Source of the DNA: Phaeobacter gallaeciensis DSM 26640
GTDB taxonomy: Bacteria; Pseudomonadota; Alphaproteobacteria; Rhodobacterales; Rhodobacteraceae
Assembly (NCBI RefSeq): GCF_000511385.1
Contig: NC_023137.1
Span: 3,603,001-3,667,000 of the forward strand
Direction: 5' to 3'
DNA: 64,000 nucleotides
Part shown: positions 31,347 to 42,816 of the stretch, in pieces
How the letters are laid out: each line of letters opens with the position of its first letter
Numbering within the stretch: position 1 is the stretch's first letter
Program-made: the position numbers and the translations under genes
Notes under the pieces: model-generated
Databases searched by the model: none
The model's input: only the letters and a program-made list of their open reading frames with translations
What the model was told of the DNA's origin: nothing

Positions 31347-31700
31347 ATGCGACTTCTCTACGCCGCGCTTGGGCTTCTATGTGTTGGGTTAGCGCTCGTC
31401 GGGGTCGCCCTTCCTCTCTTACCGACGGTTCCATTCTTGCTGCTCGCAAGTTTTTTCTTTGCCAATTCTTCGGAACGGCTGCACGACTGGATCATAAACC
31501 ATCGACTGTTTGGCCCGATGATCCAGGATTGGCATGAGCGAGGCGCCATCCGACCTGCCGCAAAAAAGGCGGCAACCTTCTCAATTGCCGCCGTGTTCGG
31601 TTTGTCGGTTATTTTCTCAGCACCAAGTCACGTCCTGATCATTCAGGCCATCACACTTAGCGCAGTGATGATATTCATCTGGTCACGCCCTAACGGCTAA
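31347..31700 (+). CDS. DUF454 (YbaN) inner-membrane protein
   Basis: A 117-residue membrane protein with hydrophobic segments at about residues 4-42 (two closely spaced) and 77-113. FLLLASFFFANSSERLHDWIINHRLFGP matches the YbaN family pattern in its core (FFANSS, NHRLFGP). Function unknown. It begins 3 bp after hemW, and its 3' end overlaps the 3' end of the convergent parB by 11 bp. Confidence 0.85.
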   Translation: MRLLYAALGLLCVGLALVGVALPLLPTVPFLLLASFFFANSSERLHDWIINHRLFGPMIQDWHERGAIRPAAKKAATFSIAAVFGLSVIFSAPSHVLIIQAITLSAVMIFIWSRPNG

Positions 31701-32583
31701 GACGCCCGCAAAGATCATCCAACTCATCCAAAGATGCATAGCTGATCGAAAGAACGCCACTTTCACCACCAGCACGATGATCAATCGACACTTTCATACG
31801 CAGCGCGGCTGAGAGATCTGCTTCCAAGGCGCGCGTATCCGCATCTTTCTCGGCTGTTTTCTTTGCCGAACGCGCTGTTACGACTTGCAGGCCGGCAGCA
31901 TCCTTTTTCACCAACGCCTCAGTGGCACGTACTGACAGACCACCTTTAACAATTTTCTTCGCCAAATCTGACGCATTATCTGACGTGATAAGAGCACGGG
32001 CATGACCAGCTGAGAGGCGACGCTCTTGAACCAAAGACTGTACATCATCTGGAAGATGCAGCAGTCGGACCAGATTGGCGATATGGCTCCGGCTCTTACC
32101 GAGCGCCTCTGCCATTTTCTCTTGTGTATGGCCAAATTTGTCCATCAGTTGTTTATAGCTCTGCGCCTCTTCCATCGCGTTGAGATCAGAGCGTTGAATG
32201 TTCTCGATAATGGCGACTTCCATCATCTCAACATCGGAATAGTCCCGAATAATGACCGGCACTTCGTGTAATTGCGCCCCTTGCGCAGCACGCCAACGGC
32301 GTTCGCCGGCGACGATCTCATACAGACCGCCTGGACGCGGCCGCACGATAAGGGGCTGAAGAACCCCCTTTTCCCGGATCGATGCAGTTAGATCATCCAG
32401 ATCTTCTTGCAGAAACTGCCGACGCGGCTGATCTGGGTTCGCATTAATTTTCTCGATAGGCACCATGACTTCGGTGCTTCTGACTGCCTGTTTTTCTGTG
32501 CTAACAGGTTCCGGGTTCACATCCGCCATTAGAGCTGACAAGCCTCGTCCCAATCCTCTGGGTTTATTTTTCTTTTCTGACAT
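31690..32583 (-). CDS. parB: Chromosome partitioning protein ParB
   Basis: A 297-residue CTP-dependent clamp that loads at parS and spreads along DNA. Conserved blocks include the CTP-binding GERRWRAAQ and the helix-turn-helix region EKMAEALGKSRSHIANLVRLL. N-terminal GRGLSALM is the usual ParA-interacting start. Two perfect parS sites lie 1.4 and 3.3 kb upstream. It follows parA by 20 bp. Confidence 0.96.
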   Translation of the reverse strand: MSEKKNKPRGLGRGLSALMADVNPEPVSTEKQAVRSTEVMVPIEKINANPDQPRRQFLQEDLDDLTASIREKGVLQPLIVRPRPGGLYEIVAGERRWRAAQGAQLHEVPVIIRDYSDVEMMEVAIIENIQRSDLNAMEEAQSYKQLMDKFGHTQEKMAEALGKSRSHIANLVRLLHLPDDVQSLVQERRLSAGHARALITSDNASDLAKKIVKGGLSVRATEALVKKDAAGLQVVTARSAKKTAEKDADTRALEADLSAALRMKVSIDHRAGGESGVLSISYASLDELDDLCGRLSR

Positions 32584-32603: not shown

Positions 32604-33413
32604 TTAGGCTGCGAGTTTCTGATGTCTCGCAATCAGTTCTTCTGCAAGGGCGCGATACGCATTCGCCCCAAGCGAGTTCGTGTCGTAGTTCAACACCGGC
32701 AACGCATAAGACGGCGCCTCGCTAACACGTACATTTCGAGGAATCTTCGTTTCAAAGACCAATTCCCCCAGATGCCCGCGAGCATCCTGCTCCACCTGCT
32801 GAGACAGGTTATTCCGCCGGTCGTACATCGTCAGAACAATCCCCTCAATCCGAAGATTCGGGTTTGCTGTCTGACGCACCTCACGGATCGTGAGCATCAG
32901 TTGTGAGACCCCCTCAAGTGCAAAAAATTCGCTCTGTAATGGGACCAACACAGAATGGGAAGCAACCATCGCGTTGACAGTCAATAGGTTCAGCGATGGT
33001 GGGCAATCGATCAGAACATAATCCCAGTCGTAATCATCCATCGCAGACTGACGTAACGCATCGTGCAGTAGGAAGCTACGCTTTTCATTTGTAAACAGTT
33101 CAATATCCGCAGAACTCAGATCAACCGTCGCCGGAATAATGCAAAGATCTTCGATCTCCGTCTCGCGAATGACGTCATTCAAAGCAACATCATCTACAAG
33201 AAGATCATAGGTTGTGCGGGTGCGATCTGTCGCTTCGATTCCAAGACCCGTTGAGGCATTGCCTTGCGGATCCAGGTCGACAACAAGGACCCGATACCCA
33301 GTTTCAACCAAAGCTGCCGCTAAGTTGATTGCGGTTGTTGTTTTACCAACCCCACCCTTTTGATTGGCCACTGCAATAATTCGAGGCCCAGCCGGCCGGG
33401 ACAAATCAGACAC
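32604..33413 (-). CDS. parA: Chromosome partitioning ATPase ParA (Soj)
   Basis: A 269-residue deviant-Walker ATPase that moves ParB-parS complexes. Deviant Walker A is KGGVGKTTTAINLA, and DLDPQGNAS and IDCPPSLNLL are the other nucleotide motifs. There is no N-terminal helix-turn-helix, so it is of the small chromosomal class. Start GTG 33413 overlaps the rsmG stop by 8 bases (GTGTCTGA). Confidence 0.96.
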   Translation of the reverse strand: MSDLSRPAGPRIIAVANQKGGVGKTTTAINLAAALVETGYRVLVVDLDPQGNASTGLGIEATDRTRTTYDLLVDDVALNDVIRETEIEDLCIIPATVDLSSADIELFTNEKRSFLLHDALRQSAMDDYDWDYVLIDCPPSLNLLTVNAMVASHSVLVPLQSEFFALEGVSQLMLTIREVRQTANPNLRIEGIVLTMYDRRNNLSQQVEQDARGHLGELVFETKIPRNVRVSEAPSYALPVLNYDTNSLGANAYRALAEELIARHQKLAA

Positions 33414-34020
33414 GCGTCACTCCCCTGATTTCTAATATAACCGCCTCGGGTTCAGTCCAACTACTAGTGGATTTCAGGTCGAATTGCCATTGGCTCCGCG
33501 CGTTATCCACTTCTTTTTTCCACTGTATTCCTTTGGAAAACAGAGCAGTGCCCTCCGGTTTAAGATGCCTCTCAGCGAAGCCCAGTAACGTTGTGAGATC
33601 AGCCAACGCACGTGCTGAGATCATATCAGCAGCCATCGGTGGAACCTGTTCGATACGCTTCGACATCACTGTTGCCTTCGCCCCGCATTCTCGAATTGCT
33701 GTACGAAGAAATGCACACTTACGCTGATCACTTTCGATCAGAGTAATTGCGCAATCCGGCGCACGCTCGGCTGCGAGAATTGCAACAACAACACCTGGAA
33801 AGCCACCGCCACTCCCAATGTCGAGCCATGTCTGCGGAAAAACCACCTCTTCGCAGATCTGTATAGAATCAACAATATGGCGGTCCCAAATGTCGGACAA
33901 TGTAGACTTTGCAATGAGGTTGATTTTAGGCGACCACTTTTTGACGAGAGTTTCGTAGTGTTTAAGACGCTCGTATGTTTCACGTGAAACATACGTCTCT
34001 CCAATTTTTATTTCAGCCAT
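33406..34020 (-). CDS. rsmG: 16S rRNA (guanine527-N7)-methyltransferase
   Basis: A 204-residue SAM methyltransferase with [12 protein letters not shown] as motif I and the family segment [24 protein letters not shown] in shortened form [11 protein letters not shown] 34020 overlaps the end of mnmG by 8 bases. Codons for YVSRET near the N terminus are written by a perfect parS site, so the coding sequence is constrained twice. Confidence 0.95.
33976..33991. other. parS site 1, within rsmG
   Basis: Perfect 16-bp palindrome TGTTTCACGTGAAACA, identical to the bacterial parS consensus, extended symmetrically to 22 bp (33973-33994). It lies inside the rsmG reading frame about 0.6 kb from parA and about 5.1 kb from the putative origin. 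It should be the loading site for the ParB encoded nearby. Confidence 0.95.
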
Positions 34021-35905
34021 TTCGCGCTGTCTTCCCATCGCTGGTAGCAGTGCCACGGCGTAATCTTGCCAATATCAGCGCAAGCGCCGCCGGCGTCATA
34101 CCATCAACTCTACCGGCTTGAGCGAGTGTTTCTGGCCGAGATTTCTCAAGTTTTCCACGCAATTCATTCGACAGACCCTCAAAACTGTAAGAAAAATCTT
34201 CAGGAATACGATAACCTTCATCCCGCTTCAGAGCCTCGATCTCACGTTTCTGGCGGATGATGTAGTTCGCGTACAGGGCATCTCGCTCGATTTGACGACG
34301 AATAGGGTCTTCGCAAGTCTCAAGATCGGGAAGTAGGCGCAAGATATCCTCGAACACCACGTCAGGAAACGCCAGTACATCAGTTGCGGTCCGCCTGTTT
34401 CCATCCTGGTTAACTGAAATACCAACTTCATTGATTTCCTTTGGGGTGAACTTGCGATCATTCATCACGGATCTGGCATCTTCCAGCTTCTCCATTTTTT
34501 TAGAGAAATACCCGCGGCGCAGCTCACCAACACATCCTAGATCGATACCAATGCTCGTTAACCGCTGATCAGCATTGTCGGCACGCAGCGATAGCCTGAA
34601 TTCTGCTCGGGAGGTGAACATTCTATACGGCTCGGTCACGCCATTTGTTGTAAGATCATCCACCATCACGCCAATGTAGCTGTCGGAACGACTAAATGTG
34701 ATTGGATCCATATCCTTTGAATAACGCGCAGCATTCAATCCAGCGACAAGCCCCTGTGCCGCGGCCTCTTCATATCCTGTGGTGCCATTAATCTGTCCCG
34801 CAAGATATAGGCCTCGATAAGATTTTAGTGCCAAATCTAATCCGAGCGCGCGTGGATCCACATAGTCATATTCAATGGCATACCCTGGCTGTAAGATAGT
34901 AGCATCTTTCAAACCAACGATGGAACGCACATAGCGCTCTTGAACATCCAGTGGCAGACTCGTAGAAATCCCATTTGGATAAACCGTATGATCCTCCGCG
35001 CCCTCCGGTTCTAGGAAAATCTGATGACTTGTCTTATCAGAGAACCGAACAACCTTATCTTCAATCGAAGGACAATAACGCGGACCGACACCGTCGATAT
35101 GCCCGCCGTACATAGCGGATCTTTCTAGGTTCTCGCGGATAATATCATGTGTATGCGTATTGGTATGTGTAATGCCGCATACAACTTGAGGAGCCGACAC
35201 AGATGCCGTCAGGAAACTGAAAAATGTAGGGTCATCATCTCCGGGCTGCCCCTCCAGCTTTTCCCAGGCAATGGTACGACCATCCAGCCGTGGTGGCGTG
35301 CCCGTTTTCAGTCGCCCAAGTTGTAGATCAAAACTGTCGAGCCGTTCTGCGAGACGGACTGATGGTTTATCTCCCATACGCCCACCAGGCTTAGATATGT
35401 CACCGATATGGATGACACCTCTCAGAAATGTCCCAGATGTCAGGATCACAGCGCGGCTGGCAATTTCACTGTCATCAGCCAGACGAACGCCATGGATCAC
35501 ATCTCCTGTCATTAGGAAATCAATAACTTCACCGGTGACAATATCGAGATTAGGCTGTGCTTCGGTCTCAGATAGCATCTCACGACGATATATCTTCCGA
35601 TCTGACTGGGCCCTTGGGCCCTGCACAGCCGGCCCTTTGCGTCTATTGAGGAGTCGGAATTGAATGCCAGCTTTATCAGCCACACGCCCCATAACGCCGT
35701 CCAGCGCATCAATCTCACGAACCAAGTGACCTTTACCCAATCCACCGATTGCCGGATTGCAAGACATCACACCAATGCCGTCCTTAGTGAGAGTGATGAG
35801 AGCCGTCTTGACGCCCATCCGGGCAGCAGCATGCGCTGCCTCCGTCCCTGCGTGGCCGCCACCTACAACGATCACATCGTAATCTGGATGTTTCACGTGA
35901 AACAC
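34013..35905 (-). CDS. mnmG: tRNA uridine 5-carboxymethylaminomethyl modification enzyme MnmG (GidA)
   Basis: A 630-residue FAD enzyme that with MnmE modifies the wobble uridine of several tRNAs. The FAD fold is [15 protein letters not shown], followed by [22 protein letters not shown] in core form SCNPAIGG. The start is uncertain: GTG 35905 directly abuts GGGAG, while the in-frame GTG at 35896 lies eight bases from it and would give MKHPDYDV. Either way the start is inside a parS site. It follows mnmE by 3 bp. Confidence 0.95.
35889..35904. other. parS site 2, across the mnmG start codon
   Basis: A second perfect TGTTTCACGTGAAACA. Read as mnmG codons it gives F-H-V-K-H just after the first GTG, and its centre contains the alternative GTG start. 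It is 1.9 kb from parS site 1. The two sites bracket mnmG. Confidence 0.95.
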
Positions 35906-35908
35906 TCC

Positions 35909-37201
35909 CTACTTTCCTAAGCAAAAACTGGAGAAAATTTCATCCAGCAGATTTTCCACCCCTACGCGGCCAACCAGCATCTCTAGAGATCGAATAGCCG
36001 AGCGCATATCCTCAGCGGCGACATCATAGAACTCTGGACCATGCGCTAGCACATCTAATGCAGATTGAAGCCGGCTATACGCCGTCTTCATTGTCTCTCG
36101 ATGTCGTGCTCGAGTTGCGATACCTACTTTACCAGCTCTGCTTTGCAGTACATTGACAATATCCGTAATCAACAGGTCTATACCCTGCCCTGTTCTTCCG
36201 GAAACCGCTTTTTCAGAAGCATCATTGTCGATCAGATCCGCCTTTGGGGTAACAACAATATCGTCCTCAAGGATATCGATATCAATTGCATCTCGATCAT
36301 TGGTCAAAAACACGCGAAGGTCTGCTGCCTCTGCACGTTTCTTCGCTATTTTGATGCCGATCCCTTCGACATGATCGTCAGTCTCGCGTAGGCCAGCGGT
36401 ATCAAGAAGAGTGACTGGCAGTCCAGCCAAATCCATCCTTACCTCGATCACGTCCCGGGTCGTACCGGCATATTCCGACGTGATAGCAGCCTCGCGGCCG
36501 GCCAGAGCGTTGAGTAGTGTTGACTTTCCAACGTTTGGCGCGCCGATGATTGCAACCTCAAAACCGCTGCGAATCCGTTCGGCCATTTGCACGCCGGAAA
36601 TTTGAGGTTCCAGATCCGCTGTTACACCGGCCAAAAGCTCTTTGACTTCCTCAGTTACATCTACGGGGACATCTTCGTCAGCGAAGTCAATCGTCACCTC
36701 GATCAGGGATGCAGCGCGAATAAGGTCTTTTCGCCAGCGCTCGGCCAAGTCAGAAAGCCCGCCGGCGAGCACAGCCTGTGCCTGAACCCGCTGCGCCTCG
36801 GTCTCTGCATCGATCAAATCCGCCAATGCCTCAACCTGGGAGAGGTCCAGCTTACCATTTTCAAGAGCACGGCGCGTGAACTCACCTGGGTCCGCCAGCC
36901 GCACGTCCTCAAACTGACCCAGAAGATCAAGCATAGCGCTGACAACTGAAGTGCTGCCATGCACCTGAAATTCAACGGTATCTTCACCAGTGAAGCTATT
37001 CGGGCCGACGAATGTAAGCACCAAGGCTTCGTCGATAGGTGCTTCGCTGCGATCAGACAGAACGCGCAACGCCCGACCAGGACAAGGCAAAGCACCGCCA
37101 CTGATAACAGAAGCGGTGCTGATAGCCTTTGGGCCCGAGAGGCGAATAACCGAAACGCCGGCCTTCCCTTGGGCGGAGGCCAGCGCAAAGATCGTGTCCA
37201 T
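35909..37201 (-). CDS. mnmE: tRNA modification GTPase MnmE (TrmE)
   Basis: A 430-residue GTPase partner of MnmG. The N-terminal tetrahydrofolate-binding domain begins MDTIFALASAQGKAGVSVIR; the G domain has GAPNVGKSTLLNAL, DTAGLRE and the specificity motif TKAD-like TPKADL; the C terminus ends FCLGK, the family's catalytic C-x-GK. GGAAGG seven bases before ATG 37201. It reads from rho toward mnmG in one operon. Confidence 0.96.
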   Translation of the reverse strand: MDTIFALASAQGKAGVSVIRLSGPKAISTASVISGGALPCPGRALRVLSDRSEAPIDEALVLTFVGPNSFTGEDTVEFQVHGSTSVVSAMLDLLGQFEDVRLADPGEFTRRALENGKLDLSQVEALADLIDAETEAQRVQAQAVLAGGLSDLAERWRKDLIRAASLIEVTIDFADEDVPVDVTEEVKELLAGVTADLEPQISGVQMAERIRSGFEVAIIGAPNVGKSTLLNALAGREAAITSEYAGTTRDVIEVRMDLAGLPVTLLDTAGLRETDDHVEGIGIKIAKKRAEAADLRVFLTNDRDAIDIDILEDDIVVTPKADLIDNDASEKAVSGRTGQGIDLLITDIVNVLQSRAGKVGIATRARHRETMKTAYSRLQSALDVLAHGPEFYDVAAEDMRSAIRSLEMLVGRVGVENLLDEIFSSFCLGK

Positions 37202-37233: not shown

Positions 37234-38505
37234 TTAGGTGTTCATTGAGTCGAAGAATTCAGAATTTGTCTTTGTTTGCTTTAACTTAGACAAAAGAAAC
37301 TCGATCGCGTCTGTAGTACCCATCGGATTCAGAATCCGGCGAAGCACAAATGTCTTGGCAAGATCGCCTTTGTCGACGAGCAGATCCTCTTTCCGTGTAC
37401 CCGATTTGAGGATATCGATAGCCGGGAAGACGCGTTTGTCTGCGATCTTCCGGTCCAGGACGATTTCAGAGTTACCGGTCCCTTTGAATTCTTCAAAGAT
37501 CACTTCATCCATCCGACTACCCGTATCGATCAGAGCCGTCGCGATGATGGTCAGAGAACCGCCTTCTTCGATATTCCGGGCTGCACCAAAGAACCGTTTG
37601 GGGCGTTGAAGTGCATTTGCATCGACACCACCAGTCAAAACTTTACCGGAGGACGGCACCACAGTGTTGAATGCCCTACCAAGTCTTGTGATTGAGTCCA
37701 GAAGAATCACAACATCTCGTTTGTGTTCCACCAAGCGCTTGGCTTTTTCGATCACCATCTCGGACACCGCAACGTGCCGGGTCGCCGGTTCGTCGAATGT
37801 CGAAGAGACAACCTCACCATTGACCGACCGCTGCATGTCAGTGACTTCTTCCGGACGTTCATCAATCAGCAGGACGATCAGATAGCATTCCGGATGATTC
37901 TTCGCGATGGAATGCGCGATATTCTGAAGGATCACTGTCTTACCGGTCCGTGGCGGTGCCACGATCAGGGAACGCTGACCTTTACCAATCGGGGAGACCA
38001 AATCGATCACGCGAGCAGAGCGATCCTTGATGGTTGGATCTTCGATCTCCATCTTCAGGCGCTCATCCGGATAGAGCGGTGTCAGGTTGTCAAAAGCGAT
38101 CTTGTGACGGGCCTTCTCCGGCTCTTCAAAGTTGATTTTGGTGACATTTGTCAGCGCAAAATACCGTTCGTTTTCCAGCGGCGATTTAATCTGCCCTTCG
38201 ACCGTGTCGCCGGTCCGCAGCGCATATTGCCGGATCATATCGGGCGAAACATAGATATCGTCGGGACCTGGCAGATAGTTGGCTTCAGGCGAGCGCAGGA
38301 AACCGAATCCATCTTGAAGAACCTCAAGCACACCATCGCCGGCAATTTCCCAGCCCTCATCCGCACGTTCGCGCAGAATCTGGAACATCATCTCGCCCTT
38401 GCGCATGGTCGAGGCGTTTTCGATCTCCAGCTCTTCGGCCATGGACAGAAGGTCCTTAGGGCTTTTGGCCTTAAGATCGGAAAGGTTCAGGGATTGAACG
38501 GTCAT
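37234..38505 (-). CDS. rho: Transcription termination factor Rho
   Basis: A 423-residue hexameric RNA helicase. The N-terminal RNA-binding domain includes [23 protein letters not shown] in core form GFGFLRS and YVSPDMIR. The ATPase has [11 protein letters not shown] (Walker A) and [18 protein letters not shown] 38505 gives the usual N terminus. A 6-bp G+C hairpin (38524-38543) sits 19 bases before the start codon in the 129-bp leader. The shift back to G+C-richer sequence after mnmE is visible here. Confidence 0.97.
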
Positions 38506-38634
38506 ATATATACGGCCTTTATTCTCCCCTGAGATCTGGGGAGCGGTGTCATAGGTATAAGGAAGACACGAGTGCCCGGACGGGCCCGTTAGCCGCATAC
38601 ATAAGGGCTCCACCCTGCTGAGTCAAATCCCCGC

Positions 38635-39090
38635 TCAGAACTTGAAGATGACGGATACCACGATGACCACCATCAGCAGTGTCGGGACTTCGTTCATCAT
38701 TCTATAGCTGCGACCACTGCGGGTGTTCTTCCCATTTGCGAAGTCACGGTGACGGATCAATAGCCAGTGGTGAAACCAGGTCATCCCCAGGACGCTCAGG
38801 CCCTTCGTCCAGGGCCAAAGACTAGTCCAGTCGACCAACCCCGGCGTGAGTACCATTAACAGCCCTGCAGCCCAGCTAACGTACATAGCGGGCTTCATGA
38901 TGATGCGGAGCAACTTCTCCTCCATCATGACAAAGATGGGAAGACTGTCTGGCACCTTCTCTGCCTGCTCCACGTGATAGACGAAAAGCCTCGGGAGGTA
39001 GAACAGACCTGCCATCCAGCTAATCACTGCCATGATGTGCAGAGATTTGGCGTAGGGGTAAATTTCAAAGAGCAGATCGCTCAGGTCCAT
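38635..39090 (-). CDS. hemJ: Protoporphyrinogen IX oxidase HemJ
   Basis: A 151-residue four-helix membrane protein of the HemJ family, which oxidises protoporphyrinogen IX in bacteria lacking HemG and HemY. SLHIMAVISWMAGLFYLPRLFVYH carries the conserved His and Arg (core: LHIMAVISWMAG), and the C-terminal RMMNEVPT is typical. It is the first gene left of the putative origin and reads away from it, so its promoter lies in the origin region. Confidence 0.92.
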   Translation of the reverse strand: MDLSDLLFEIYPYAKSLHIMAVISWMAGLFYLPRLFVYHVEQAEKVPDSLPIFVMMEEKLLRIIMKPAMYVSWAAGLLMVLTPGLVDWTSLWPWTKGLSVLGMTWFHHWLLIRHRDFANGKNTRSGRSYRMMNEVPTLLMVVIVVSVIFKF

Positions 39091-39495
39091 GGTTGGCCTC
39101 TCGGTTCCCTCTCTCCCCTTAAAATATAAGTATTTTAAAAGGATGATGTTTTAGTAGTGCACCCTAAAAACGGTGGATAACTGACTCGTCCACCGGCTTA
39201 TCCCCGCTTGGGATAACTTACCAGCTTTACCCCCAGCGACATGATGCCTCTTGCCGGCAGGCTATAAAAATATGAGAAATATCACGTTCATTTTGGGGTT
39301 TCGTCGTGGGGATAAACTTGGGGTGAAATCGGAGTAACTGAGATATCCACGATTTCAAAGTTATCCCTATCCTCTCAGGGCGAATCTGCCGGCAAGCAAA
39401 TGGGGATTTTGAGGTTCTCCACGGCTTGCGAAATGGCCGAAATTTCATACAAACCATCCTAAGCTCACCACACTCTTGCCCACGGGGTTTTCCAC
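39091..39495. other. Putative chromosomal replication origin (oriC)
   Basis: A 405-bp gene-free segment where gene direction reverses from leftward (hemJ, rho, mnmE) to rightward (maf, aroE, coaE, dnaQ). DnaA-box-like 9-mers (TTATCCACA model) with one mismatch lie at 39172-39180, 39307-39315 and 39488-39496; two-mismatch versions at 39198, 39208, 39343, 39361 and 39415. An A+T-rich segment with an 8-bp palindrome (39119-39138) could be the unwinding element. CTTGCCGGCAG at 39250 and its complement at 39386 form an 11-bp inverted repeat. GANTC sites at 39183 and 39382 suit CcrM control. The flanking gene order matches the origin region of Caulobacter. Confidence 0.82.
39119..39138. repeat. A+T-rich palindrome, candidate DNA-unwinding element
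   Basis: TTAAAATA (39119-39126), spacer TAAG, TATTTTAA (39131-39138), a perfect 8-bp inverted repeat made only of A and T. It is the most A+T-rich stretch of the putative origin and lies at its hemJ side, beside the first DnaA-box-like sequence. Confidence 0.6.
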
Positions 39496-40095
39496 ATGTC
39501 TACCCACATCGTTCTGGCGTCCGGATCGCAGATACGCGCCCAGCTGCTGCGGCAGGCTGGCGTTCCGTTTGAGGTCGCCGCGGCCCGTATCGACGAAGCG
39601 GCGATCAAAGCGGCGCTTCTGGCTGAGGAAGCCACGCCGCGTGATATCTCCGATACGCTGGCAGAGGCGAAGGCGCGCAAGGTCAGCGCCAAGTTCCCCG
39701 GTGCCCTGGTGTTGGGCTGTGATCAGGTCCTCGAGTTTGATGGAAAATTGTTATCAAAACCAAAAGATTCGGATGACGCCTTTGCTCAGCTGAAGATGAT
39801 GCGGGGTAAGCGACATATGTTATTGTCCGCTGCGGTCATCTATCGCGACAATGAGCCGCTATGGCGGCATATCGGCCAAGTGCGGCTTAGGATGCGGTCC
39901 AGTTCGGATGCATATCTGCGCAGTTATGTTGCGCGAAACTGGGACAGCATTCAGCATGCCGTTGGCGGATATAAGTTGGAGGAAGAAGGGGTTCGATTGT
40001 TCAGCGCCATCGAGGGAGACTATTTCAACGTGCTTGGATTACCGTTGTTGGAACTGCTGAACTATCTGGCCCTTCAGGGAGTGATTGAGCAATGA
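39496..40095 (+). CDS. maf: Maf-like nucleoside triphosphate pyrophosphatase
   Basis: A 199-residue house-cleaning pyrophosphatase with N-terminal [16 protein letters not shown], the active-site [11 protein letters not shown] and KPKD, and C-terminal [12 protein letters not shown]. It is the first gene on the right of the putative origin. Its ATG at 39496 overlaps the last DnaA-box-like 9-mer by one base. It overlaps aroE by 4 bases. Confidence 0.93.
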
Positions 40096-40925
40096 ATGAT
40101 ACTCGGATTCCGCTGGCTGGTGTGATCGGCAGCCCGGTGGCCCATTCCCGATCGCCATTGGTGCACGGCCATTGGCTCCGGACTTATGGCATTGCTGGCC
40201 ACTATGTGCCTCTGCATGTCGAACCTGATCAGTTGGAGGAGGTTGTCCGCAATTTGCCCAAGATGGGGTTTGTCGGGGCCAACATCACCATCCCGCACAA
40301 GGAACAGATCATGGAGATCGCCGATCAGGTGACAGATCGTGCGACATTGATTGGTGCGGCCAACACGCTGATCTTCCGTCCTGATGGCTCAATTCTTGCT
40401 GACAACACAGATGGCTACGGGTTTATTACCAATCTGCACCAGGCTGCGCCGGACTGGGATCCTGTCACCGGTCCAGCCGTTGTATTTGGGGCCGGCGGCG
40501 CCAGTCGCGCGGTGATCGCTTCGCTGCTTGAGGCAGGCGTACCAGAGATTCTGTTGAGCAACCGAACACGAGAGCGGGCGGACCAGTTCCGCAGTGAGTT
40601 TGGCTCTCGCATTCAGGTGGTTGACTGGGTACAGGTTGGCAATGTGATCGAACAGGCTGCACTCTTGGTGAATACGACCTCTCTTGGGATGGTCGGAAAG
40701 CCACGCCTGCGTGTGCCCTTGGATGGGCTGCGCTCCAGCACTGTTGTCACGGATCTGGTCTACACACCGCTGAAAACGGACATGTTACAATGGGCCGAAG
40801 ATATTGGCTGTACCACCGTTGATGGTCTTGGAATGCTGTTGCATCAGGCGGTACCAGGATTTGAACGCTGGTTTGGCAAACGACCCGAGGTAGACGCCGC
40901 CACGCGAGAGGCCGCATTGGCATGA
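40092..40925 (+). CDS. aroE: Shikimate dehydrogenase
   Basis: A 277-residue NADP enzyme of aromatic amino-acid synthesis. Substrate motif [15 protein letters not shown] and the catalytic Lys in [11 protein letters not shown] are visible; the nucleotide fold is [14 protein letters not shown], and NRTRERA is the NADP-specific motif. ATG overlaps the maf stop and the stop overlaps coaE. Confidence 0.94.
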
Positions 40926-41515
40926 GCTATGCGTTAGGGCTAACCGGGTCCATCGGTATGGGCAAAAGCGCAACTGCGCAAATCTTTGCCGACGAAGGCT
41001 GCGCAGTCTGGGACGCGGATGCTGCGGTTCACCGTCTTTATGATGTGGGCGGGGCAGCGGTTGCCCCCATTGGGGATGTATGGCCAGCGGCCGTTATCGA
41101 AGGACGGGTTGACCGGGGTCGCTTGCGTGACATCATCGCCGGCGATGGCAGTGCCCTGCCCCGGATTGAGACGATCGTACACCCTCTTGTCGCGGCTGAC
41201 CGCGAGGCTTTCAAAACGTCGTCGTCGCATGATGTTCTGGTGTTTGATATTCCGCTGCTGTTTGAAACCGGCGGTGACGCAGGAATGGATGCCGTCGCCT
41301 GTGTCTGGATCGATGCCGAGACCCAGCGCCAGCGGGTCCTGGCGCGCCAGACGATGACGGTTGAGCAGTTTGAACAAATCCTGCAAAAACAGATGCCGAT
41401 AGAGGACAAGAAAGCGCGGGCCGATTATCTGATCGAGACCGACACCCCAGACCACGCCCAGGCGCAGGTGCGGTCCATCCTCGCACAAATTAGAAGGCAG
41501 ATCGCAGATGCGTGA
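40922..41515 (+). CDS. coaE: Dephospho-CoA kinase
   Basis: A 197-residue last-step enzyme of coenzyme A synthesis. P-loop GLTGSIGMGKSA at the N terminus, DADAAVH binding motif, and VFDIPLLFETG with the lid. ATG overlaps the aroE stop by 4 bases and the stop overlaps dnaQ by 8. Confidence 0.94.
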   Translation: MSYALGLTGSIGMGKSATAQIFADEGCAVWDADAAVHRLYDVGGAAVAPIGDVWPAAVIEGRVDRGRLRDIIAGDGSALPRIETIVHPLVAADREAFKTSSSHDVLVFDIPLLFETGGDAGMDAVACVWIDAETQRQRVLARQTMTVEQFEQILQKQMPIEDKKARADYLIETDTPDHAQAQVRSILAQIRRQIADA

Positions 41516-42245
41516 AATCGTTCTTGATACAGAAACCACCGGCTTTGATCCGTTCTCCGGTGACCGGATTGTTGAAATCGGTGCAGTCGAATTGCTCAAT
41601 CACATGCCAACGGGTGAGACATTTCACGTCTATATTAATCCTCAGCGCTCCATGCCGCAGGACGCGTTTAAGGTTCACGGTATCGGGCCGGATCTTCTGG
41701 AGCCGCCACAGCAACCCGGTCCGGGTGCGGTCACATTGCGCGACAAGCCCGTGTTCGCGAAAGTGGGGCAGAAATTTCTGGATTTCGTCCGGGATTCCAA
41801 AATGGTGATCCACAATGCCGCCTTCGATATGAAGTTCCTCAATGCGGAGCTAGATTGGATGGGATTGCCAAAGCTGCCGATGGAACAGGCGGTTGATACG
41901 CTGGCGATTGCCCGCAAACGCTTTCCTGGCTCGCCGGCGACGCTGGATGCGCTCTGCCGCCGCTTCAATATCGACAACAGCAACCGAACACTGCATGGCG
42001 CTTTGCTCGATTCCGAAATCCTGGCTGATGTTTATCTGGAACTGATCGGGGGGCGGCAGCCTGATTTTGGCCTTTCAACCTCCAATGACAAGGCCAGCAG
42101 CGGGGCGACGGTGACTGATGACTGGCGCCCGACCGCCCGGCCCTCCCCGCTGCCGTCGCGGTTGACAGAGCAGGAACAGGAGGCACATGCCAATTTTGTT
42201 GCAAAAATGGGGGATGACGCCCTGTGGAACGGCGCCGGTAGCTGA
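41508..42245 (+). CDS. dnaQ: DNA polymerase III epsilon subunit (proofreading exonuclease)
   Basis: A 245-residue DEDDh exonuclease: EIVLDTETTGFD (ExoI), HNAAFDMKFLNAEL (ExoII) and LHGALLDSEILADVYLEL (ExoIII, with the His). The C-terminal segment from about residue 190 is Ser/Pro-rich and probably binds the alpha subunit. ATG overlaps coaE. A strong terminator follows. Its position next to the origin is the same as in Caulobacter. Confidence 0.94.
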   Translation: MREIVLDTETTGFDPFSGDRIVEIGAVELLNHMPTGETFHVYINPQRSMPQDAFKVHGIGPDLLEPPQQPGPGAVTLRDKPVFAKVGQKFLDFVRDSKMVIHNAAFDMKFLNAELDWMGLPKLPMEQAVDTLAIARKRFPGSPATLDALCRRFNIDNSNRTLHGALLDSEILADVYLELIGGRQPDFGLSTSNDKASSGATVTDDWRPTARPSPLPSRLTEQEQEAHANFVAKMGDDALWNGAGS

Positions 42246-42321: not shown

Positions 42322-42816
42322 TTACTGCTGAGGCTGTTCTGCGGCCTCGGCCTGCTGACGGCGCGCCAGTTCGTTGCGGTAGATCGCAACGAAATCGATA
42401 TTATCGAGGTTCAGCGGCGGGAAACCACCGTCGCGGGTGATGTCGGACACGATGCGACGCAGGAACGGGAAGAGCATACGCGGGCATTCGATCAGCAGGA
42501 ACGGATGCAGCTGATCTTCGGGAATGCCGGAGATGTTGAAAATCCCGACATATTCCAGTTCCAGAACGAAGAGGACGACGTTGCCTTCTTTGTCCTTGGA
42601 TTCGATGTTCAGTTTGGTCATCACCTCATACTGGTTTTCCGCCTGACGCTTCTTTGCATCAAGGGCAACCTGCACGCTGACATCGGGCTGAACGTCGGCG
42701 CCAACGCCTTTTTGTGCCATGACGTTTTCGAACGACATATCACGGATGAACTGGCCCAGGATATTCATCTGGACTTGCGGCTGCTGCACGCCTTCTGTTG
42801 CGCCGTTTTCGGCCAT
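42322..42816 (-). CDS. secB: Protein-export chaperone SecB
   Basis: A 164-residue cytosolic tetrameric chaperone delivering preproteins to SecA. VQMNILGQFIRDMSFENV and ECPRMLFPFLRRIVSDITRDGGFPPL (core LFPFLRRIV) are typical of the family. The Gln/Ala-rich C-terminal tail is expected to bind SecA. The gene lies convergent with dnaQ. Confidence 0.94.
   Translation of the reverse strand: MAENGATEGVQQPQVQMNILGQFIRDMSFENVMAQKGVGADVQPDVSVQVALDAKKRQAENQYEVMTKLNIESKDKEGNVVLFVLELEYVGIFNISGIPEDQLHPFLLIECPRMLFPFLRRIVSDITRDGGFPPLNLDNIDFVAIYRNELARRQQAEAAEQPQQ

Follow-up and report, generated by a model that had tools for sequence, protein, structure and literature searches.

The 405-bp spacer between hemJ and maf (39091..39495; 47% GC) almost certainly serves as oriC for the main chromosome (3.78 Mb) of this Phaeobacter. 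The minimum of the GC skew, the clustering of DnaA boxes, the parS sites, the low duplex stability and the family-wide conservation all agree on this identification, in support of the initial annotation, which had placed the chromosomal replication origin between these two genes. Gene direction reverses across the non-coding 405 bp, as that annotation also described, with hemJ (UPF0093; minus strand, 38635..39090; its match is below the NCBIfam cut-off and above that of Pfam) on one side and the gene of a maf-like nucleotide pyrophosphatase (plus strand, 39496..40095) on the other. The genome comprises 4.54 Mb in eight contigs, of which C1 (3,776,653 bp) starts at dnaA. Over 5 kb, contig C2 has 100.0% identity to four plasmid records of Phaeobacter gallaeciensis and 99.1% to two others, which places the host in this species or very close to it. 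The window, the whole stretch of 64,000 nucleotides analyzed here, is C1:3603001-3667000. The candidate origin is located at C1 3.6421-3.6425 Mb, some 135 kb from dnaA if C1 is circular. A search of the window against Rfam gave no match.

The whole chromosome was sampled in 20-kb stretches (60 stretches and the window, 1.25 Mb). Between 1 and 1.82 Mb, 27 of the 29 sampled stretches have positive GC skew; between 1.90 and 3.60 Mb, 22 of 25 have negative skew; and beyond the window all six are positive. The opposite change of sign, between 1.82 and 1.90 Mb, is found roughly across the chromosome from the spacer. At single-base resolution, the cumulative skew over the 537 kb that run from 3.46 Mb across the contig end to 0.22 Mb (6 kb of gaps unread) has its minimum at window position 39541, inside maf and 46 bases past the right end of the spacer. 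The minimum is here and not elsewhere, and the annotated origin is left unrefuted by it. A second minimum at 55.8 kb of the window is just 65 counts shallower; skew on its own leaves a doubt of 17 kb and does not single out the spacer. This doubt is removed by the DnaA boxes in the spacer. Between 46000 and 56000, just to the right of the origin, skew and gene direction are locally reversed, and several genes run leftward near 55.8 kb. This reversal, possibly a small inversion, gives the second minimum.

The near-equality of the two minima lends something to a different explanation, by which the spacer merely holds the divergent promoters of hemJ and maf, their transcription regulated by DnaA, and the true origin is within tens of kilobases (at 55.8 kb, for example) or at dnaA. 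Divergent genes do flank the spacer, and the accessible text of PMC4468827 describes DnaA as a regulator of promoters too. The distribution of the boxes makes this explanation very improbable. Five TTATCC cores are found in the 405-bp spacer against 0.09 expected at the rate of the sampled genome, which makes it the densest 405-bp stretch in the 1.25 Mb sampled (about one third of the chromosome, scanned base by base); the runner-up among the 61 stretches has three. The best 405-bp count is two in the rest of the window, two in 52-62 kb, and one in the 2.5 kb around dnaA. The arrangement GGATAA-TTATCC-GGATAA, with steps of 0-30 nt, has a single occurrence in the genome and none in the reversed control.

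Within 39081-39510, no DnaA-box-like 9-mer is perfect, three have one mismatch (39172-, 39307- and 39488+) and seven have two. One of these seven (39500) is inside maf, which leaves six in the spacer, and the 39488 box runs one base into maf; the initial count of three near-perfect and five weaker boxes holds. The anchor box TTATCCACC (39172..39180, minus strand, one mismatch) is 14 bp from the triplet-repeat element described below, and its GTGGAT is invariant in a 13-row alignment. To its right follow TTATCCCCG (39198..39206, plus, two mismatches), where the family majority is TTATCCACA; TTATCCCAA (39208..39216, minus, two mismatches); the weak box-like TTACCCCCA (39227..39235, plus, two mismatches); TTATCCCCA (39307..39315, minus, one mismatch), where the family majority is GGATAA; the weak box-like ATATCCACG (39343..39351, plus, two mismatches); TTATCCCTA (39361..39369, plus, two mismatches), within a block identical across six genomes of the genus, including that of the window; the weak box-like TTCTCCACG (39415..39423, plus, two mismatches); and TTTTCCACA at the start of maf (39488..39496, plus, one mismatch). 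These sequences are mostly TTATCCC-like. The perfect box TTATCCACA was rejected as an origin marker, as it is absent from the window and occurs 15 times genome-wide against 12 in the reversed control.

Other candidate sites were sought in the spacer. The GANTC sites that had been listed as a mark of the origin are indeed present, two against 0.45 expected. Over the 82 family spacers they are not enriched (154 vs 147 ± 10), so they are weak evidence for an origin and were rejected as such family-wide. The first of the two, GACTC at 39183..39187, adjoins the anchor box and is a possible CcrM site. A GANTC stands directly behind the anchor box in 14 of the 60 loci (among 82) that have a GTGGATWA box, with approximately 1.3 of 60 expected from background. 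Six of these 14 loci belong to the genus and the other eight to near relatives whose maf is 74% or more identical; the 14 use GACTC, GAGTC and GAATC alike, and to judge by this pattern the position looks like a kept CcrM site. The second, GAATC, is at 39382..39386; in this part of 18 of the 82 spacers a GANTC is found 8-20 nt behind TTATCC. The window's spacer gave no hit to WATCAANNNNTTR, the one IHF consensus tried. A perfect inverted repeat, CTTGCCGGCAG, has its arms at 39250-39260 and 39386-39396, 125 bp apart, inside the origin; the right arm belongs to the block identical in the six genus genomes, and the left arm decays in two of the six. Control by CtrA in the window was rejected, as TTAAN7TTAA is absent from its spacer. 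Over the 82 family spacers this motif occurs 13 times, where shuffles (local A+T content not preserved) give 1.6: 217 bp before maf in L092-L095, L108 and L158, 37-38 bp before maf in L071, L109, L112, L123, L128 and L132 (N7 varies at both positions), and, as the thirteenth, inside the A+T run of L125. A review, as far as its accessible text goes, has CtrA sites unseen in origins besides that of Caulobacter and possibly that of Rickettsia (PMC4468827); the available part of PMC1914354 gives predicted CtrA sites in the origins of Wolbachia and its relatives.

On the hemJ side the minus strand carries rho (37234..38613, as the longest ORF; the true start is probably further in), mnmE (35909..37201), mnmG/gidA (34013..35905), rsmG/gidB (33406..34056), parA (32604..33413) and parB (31690..32583). 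Beyond maf are aroE (40092..40925), coaE (40922..41515) and dnaQ (41508..42245) on the plus strand and secB (42322..42816) on the minus strand. The parS palindrome TGTTTCACGTGAAACA has two exact copies in the genome, both in the window at 3-5 kb from the spacer (33976..33991, C1:3636976-3636991; and 35889..35904, C1:3638889-3638904), and none in the reversed control. Two further copies have two mismatches, and all are on C1 within about 120 kb of the spacer. Of the parABS set annotated on one side of the origin, parB and the two exact parS sites are confirmed; parA is assigned by similarity only, its NCBIfam matches being below the cut-offs.

The A+T-rich stretch at 39118..39140 is the predicted DNA unwinding element; the 30-mer with the lowest stability in the spacer has its first base at 39118. 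On nearest-neighbor energies, the fraction of 1.25 million sampled positions that are as weak or weaker is 1.4e-5 for 30 bp, 5.8e-5 for 50 bp and 4.2e-4 for 80 bp; the stretch is among the weakest sampled places and not the weakest. The A+T-rich palindrome of the initial annotation exists (arms 39114-39126 and 39131-39143, 85% complementary), but beyond the genus, where it is recognizable, only a few close relatives (L097, L100 and L106, by eye) have it. It is absent from the family alignment, and the palindrome (39114-39143) was rejected as a functional unit. What the family keeps instead is the A+T run and the triplet-repeat element.

Comparison of related loci provides insights on what is kept in the spacer. 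Sixty-nine Rhodobacteraceae loci were taken by maf, 62 of them with hemJ adjoining; the spacer measures 362-450 bp in 61 of these 62 and 256 bp in the masked L159. The alignment of 83 rows (the window, the 69 loci and 13 further loci) presents an A-rich run, then AAAAAGGATGATG.TTTTGTAGGG, 14-15 nt, GTGGATTA, more box positions and, at maf, a sequence like TTTTCCACATG. The footprint in short is thus the A-run, GGATGATG..TTGTAGGG, 14-15 nt and GTGGATTA, and its anatomy over 82 loci, in window coordinates, is the A+T run (39118-39140), the triplet-repeat element (39141-39157), 14 bp, the anchor box (39172-39180) and weaker boxes. The 82 spacers have 252 boxes with at most one mismatch and 33 perfect ones, where dinucleotide shuffles give 9.6 and 0.3, respectively. 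By eye, L114, L121, L125, L126, L135, L136 and L137 show two tandem box-like motifs behind the triplet-repeat element, the arrangement of the Bacillus BUS.

An 89-position sequence model, made from 13 rows, matches 62 of 100 family genomes at one place each and finds no match in the other 38 (E 0.01, strict filters); the window's own genome and a congener are among the 100, as may be species from which the model was made. In 59 of the 62 the match has the strand of maf and lies 255-349 bp ahead of it; two others are 1,054 and 1,154 bp before maf, which leaves space for another gene, and one genome has no maf at the cut-off. This fixed position is a further argument against a promoter region with the origin elsewhere, as is the persistence of the module beside maf where hemJ is gone. 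Because eight loci without a neighboring hemJ keep the GGAT element and the GTGGAT box (L073 and L148, identical to each other, have a weak form of the element), the element is not the hemJ promoter as such.

The triplet-repeat element GGATGATGTTTTAGTAG (39141..39157, plus strand) resembles a DnaA-trio and reads 3'-GAT GAT TTT GTA GTA GG-5' away from the box. It is the sole exact match in the genome to GGATGATGNTTNNGTAG; with up to two mismatches there are 29 matches against 20 in the reversed control, so the exact form alone stands out. The 82 rows contain 49 distinct 18-mers, whose lag-3 identity is 0.578 against 0.312 ± 0.017 when shuffled, a figure that is not a probability because the rows are related; identity at lag 6 is 0.451, and lags 1, 2, 4, 5 and 7 are under the shuffles. 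The three-base rhythm persists though the triplet itself changes (GAT, GTT, GTA). In the 3' to 5' direction from the box, the first triplet is GAT in 39 of the 49 rows. Triplets 2, 3, 4 and 5 have a central T in 26, 32, 38 and 29 rows, respectively, and a central A in 16, 3, 0 and 4. In several rows the far triplets are out of phase with the first triplet. Shifted by one base they read by eye as 3'-TAG-5', with a central A, and a skipped base would therefore rescue the canonical motif, against the central-T reading.

We consider that the family footprint, down to the details of the module, probably represents a BUS/DnaA-trio unwinding module that opens towards hemJ. A box with at most two mismatches within 16 bp of the triplets is present (the anchor box, one mismatch, 14 bp), as are the triplet periodicity and the 3'-GAT-5' next to the box. 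Under the rule in the accessible text of PMC8287927, a minimum of three NAN triplets must lie no further than 16 bp from a box; counted by eye from the anchor box, the window has two (GAT GAT TTT). This shortfall favors the rather unlikely case that the spacer is oriC and the triplets are no DnaA-trio, the A+T run alone driving the opening and the triplets being the site of another protein or part of a leftward promoter. The mostly central T of triplets 2-5 is in line with this, as a central thymine reduces strand separation in B. subtilis (PMC10721633, in the part available), and so is the loss of register in several rows. Against it, the periodicity survives changes of the triplet itself, and in 13 of the 82 loci two box-like motifs follow the element by a crude pattern search. 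The orientation and the edge also match those of B. subtilis, whose trio strand runs towards the boxes as T16-A17-G18 and then G19 and G20 in the available text of PMC10721633; the family majority here is 5'-GTAGGG-3'.

The DnaA protein bears on the central T. The DnaA of this genome aligns with the PDB chain 8btg_A, of the B. subtilis BUS complex. Residues 183-264 of that entry agree with those in PMC10721633, where, in the text accessible, Asn187 of B. subtilis DnaA contacts the central adenine. The genome's DnaA has Tyr at this position. Among 30 aligned genomes (the window's own and 29 relatives) the residue is Tyr in 25, Phe in three, Leu in one and Arg in one, and in none is it Asn; Glu183 and Glu228 are conserved in all 30, and all 30 have Lys in place of Arg202. 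Tyr187 and central-T triplets co-occur, with the triplets read in Rhodobacteraceae only and Asn absent from all 30 proteins, and we infer that residue 187 of alphaproteobacterial DnaA and the central T belong together. It is a tentative possibility, somewhat doubtful at present, that origins of Rhodobacteraceae, and perhaps of alphaproteobacteria, use a variant trio, with 3'-GAT-5' by the box followed by central-T 3'-GTW-5' and read by a DnaA with Tyr or Phe at 187. Such a variant would belong to the deviant trios lacking the central A that the authors of the BUS rule suspected (PMC8287927, available text). Should these central-T triplets prove to be true DnaA-trios, the recognition rule for bacterial unwinding sites must widen, and the match between an altered base and an altered DnaA residue would be directly testable in vitro.

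The location of the origin, its cluster of boxes, its low duplex stability, its conservation and the periodicity of the triplets are direct results of the analysis. DnaA binding, the site and direction of opening, helicase loading and the action of ParB are deduced here from sequence, and the preferred reading of the module would have them proceed as follows. DnaA-ATP would bind the anchor box (39172-39180) and the weaker boxes to its right (39198-39369 and 39488). The oligomer would grow leftwards from the anchor box onto the plus strand of 39141-39157, one protomer for three bases, and would open the adjoining A+T-rich 39118-39140 on the hemJ side. Helicase would be loaded there and two forks would leave; ParB at the parS sites 3-5 kb off would then move the new origins apart. 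The origin of a Phaeobacter chromosome is pinned to a 405-bp spacer, and its probable opening point to some tens of bases, a placement usable for work on the roseobacter cell cycle, for cloning and for marker frequency.

Among the literature matches listed, in which subscription journals are thinly covered, no title or abstract start offers an experimentally mapped oriC of Phaeobacter. Ori-Finder has been used to predict the origins of 101 Rhodobacteraceae, with Phaeobacter included and over-represented, from DnaA boxes, the minimum of GC disparity, a local GC minimum and parAB (PMC6699656). That set covers the same family by computer prediction, and the accessible portion of its text names neither flanking genes nor an unwinding element. 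The Phaeobacter origin itself is at most a further example of a known origin type; the sole new idea is the central-T triplet footprint of the family, which is not seen in the literature matches listed.

Among the closest known systems is the origin of Caulobacter crescentus, and the likeness that the initial annotation drew to it is right in substance. Cori, 404 bp long, is found between hemE and the COG1806/DUF299 gene (PMC1914354) and has moderate and weak DnaA sites only (PMC4468827), according to the accessible parts of both. The window shares with it the kind of neighborhood, the length, the A+T-rich part and the moderate or weak boxes. It differs in having hemJ for hemE, no DUF299 gene between the origin and maf, and no TTAAN7TTAA; the hemE and DUF299 boundary genes are absent at the window, where hemJ and maf take the two sides. 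Alphaproteobacterial relatives have hemE (L077) or hemH (L081) on the hemJ side of the spacer, and in L076 the order is hemJ, spacer, a DUF299-like gene (a 60-residue match below Pfam's cut-off) and maf. These three loci argue that the hemJ/maf neighborhood is probably derived, and from gene order the roseobacter neighborhood looks like that of Cori with hemJ replacing hemE and DUF299 gone.

With the BUS of B. subtilis the window shares the order of parts: box or boxes, a short spacer, a triplet element on the strand that runs 5' to 3' towards the boxes, and then A+T. The family differs in that a central A is the rule only in the first triplet, the window in having one good box behind the element, and the DnaA in having Tyr at the position of Asn187.
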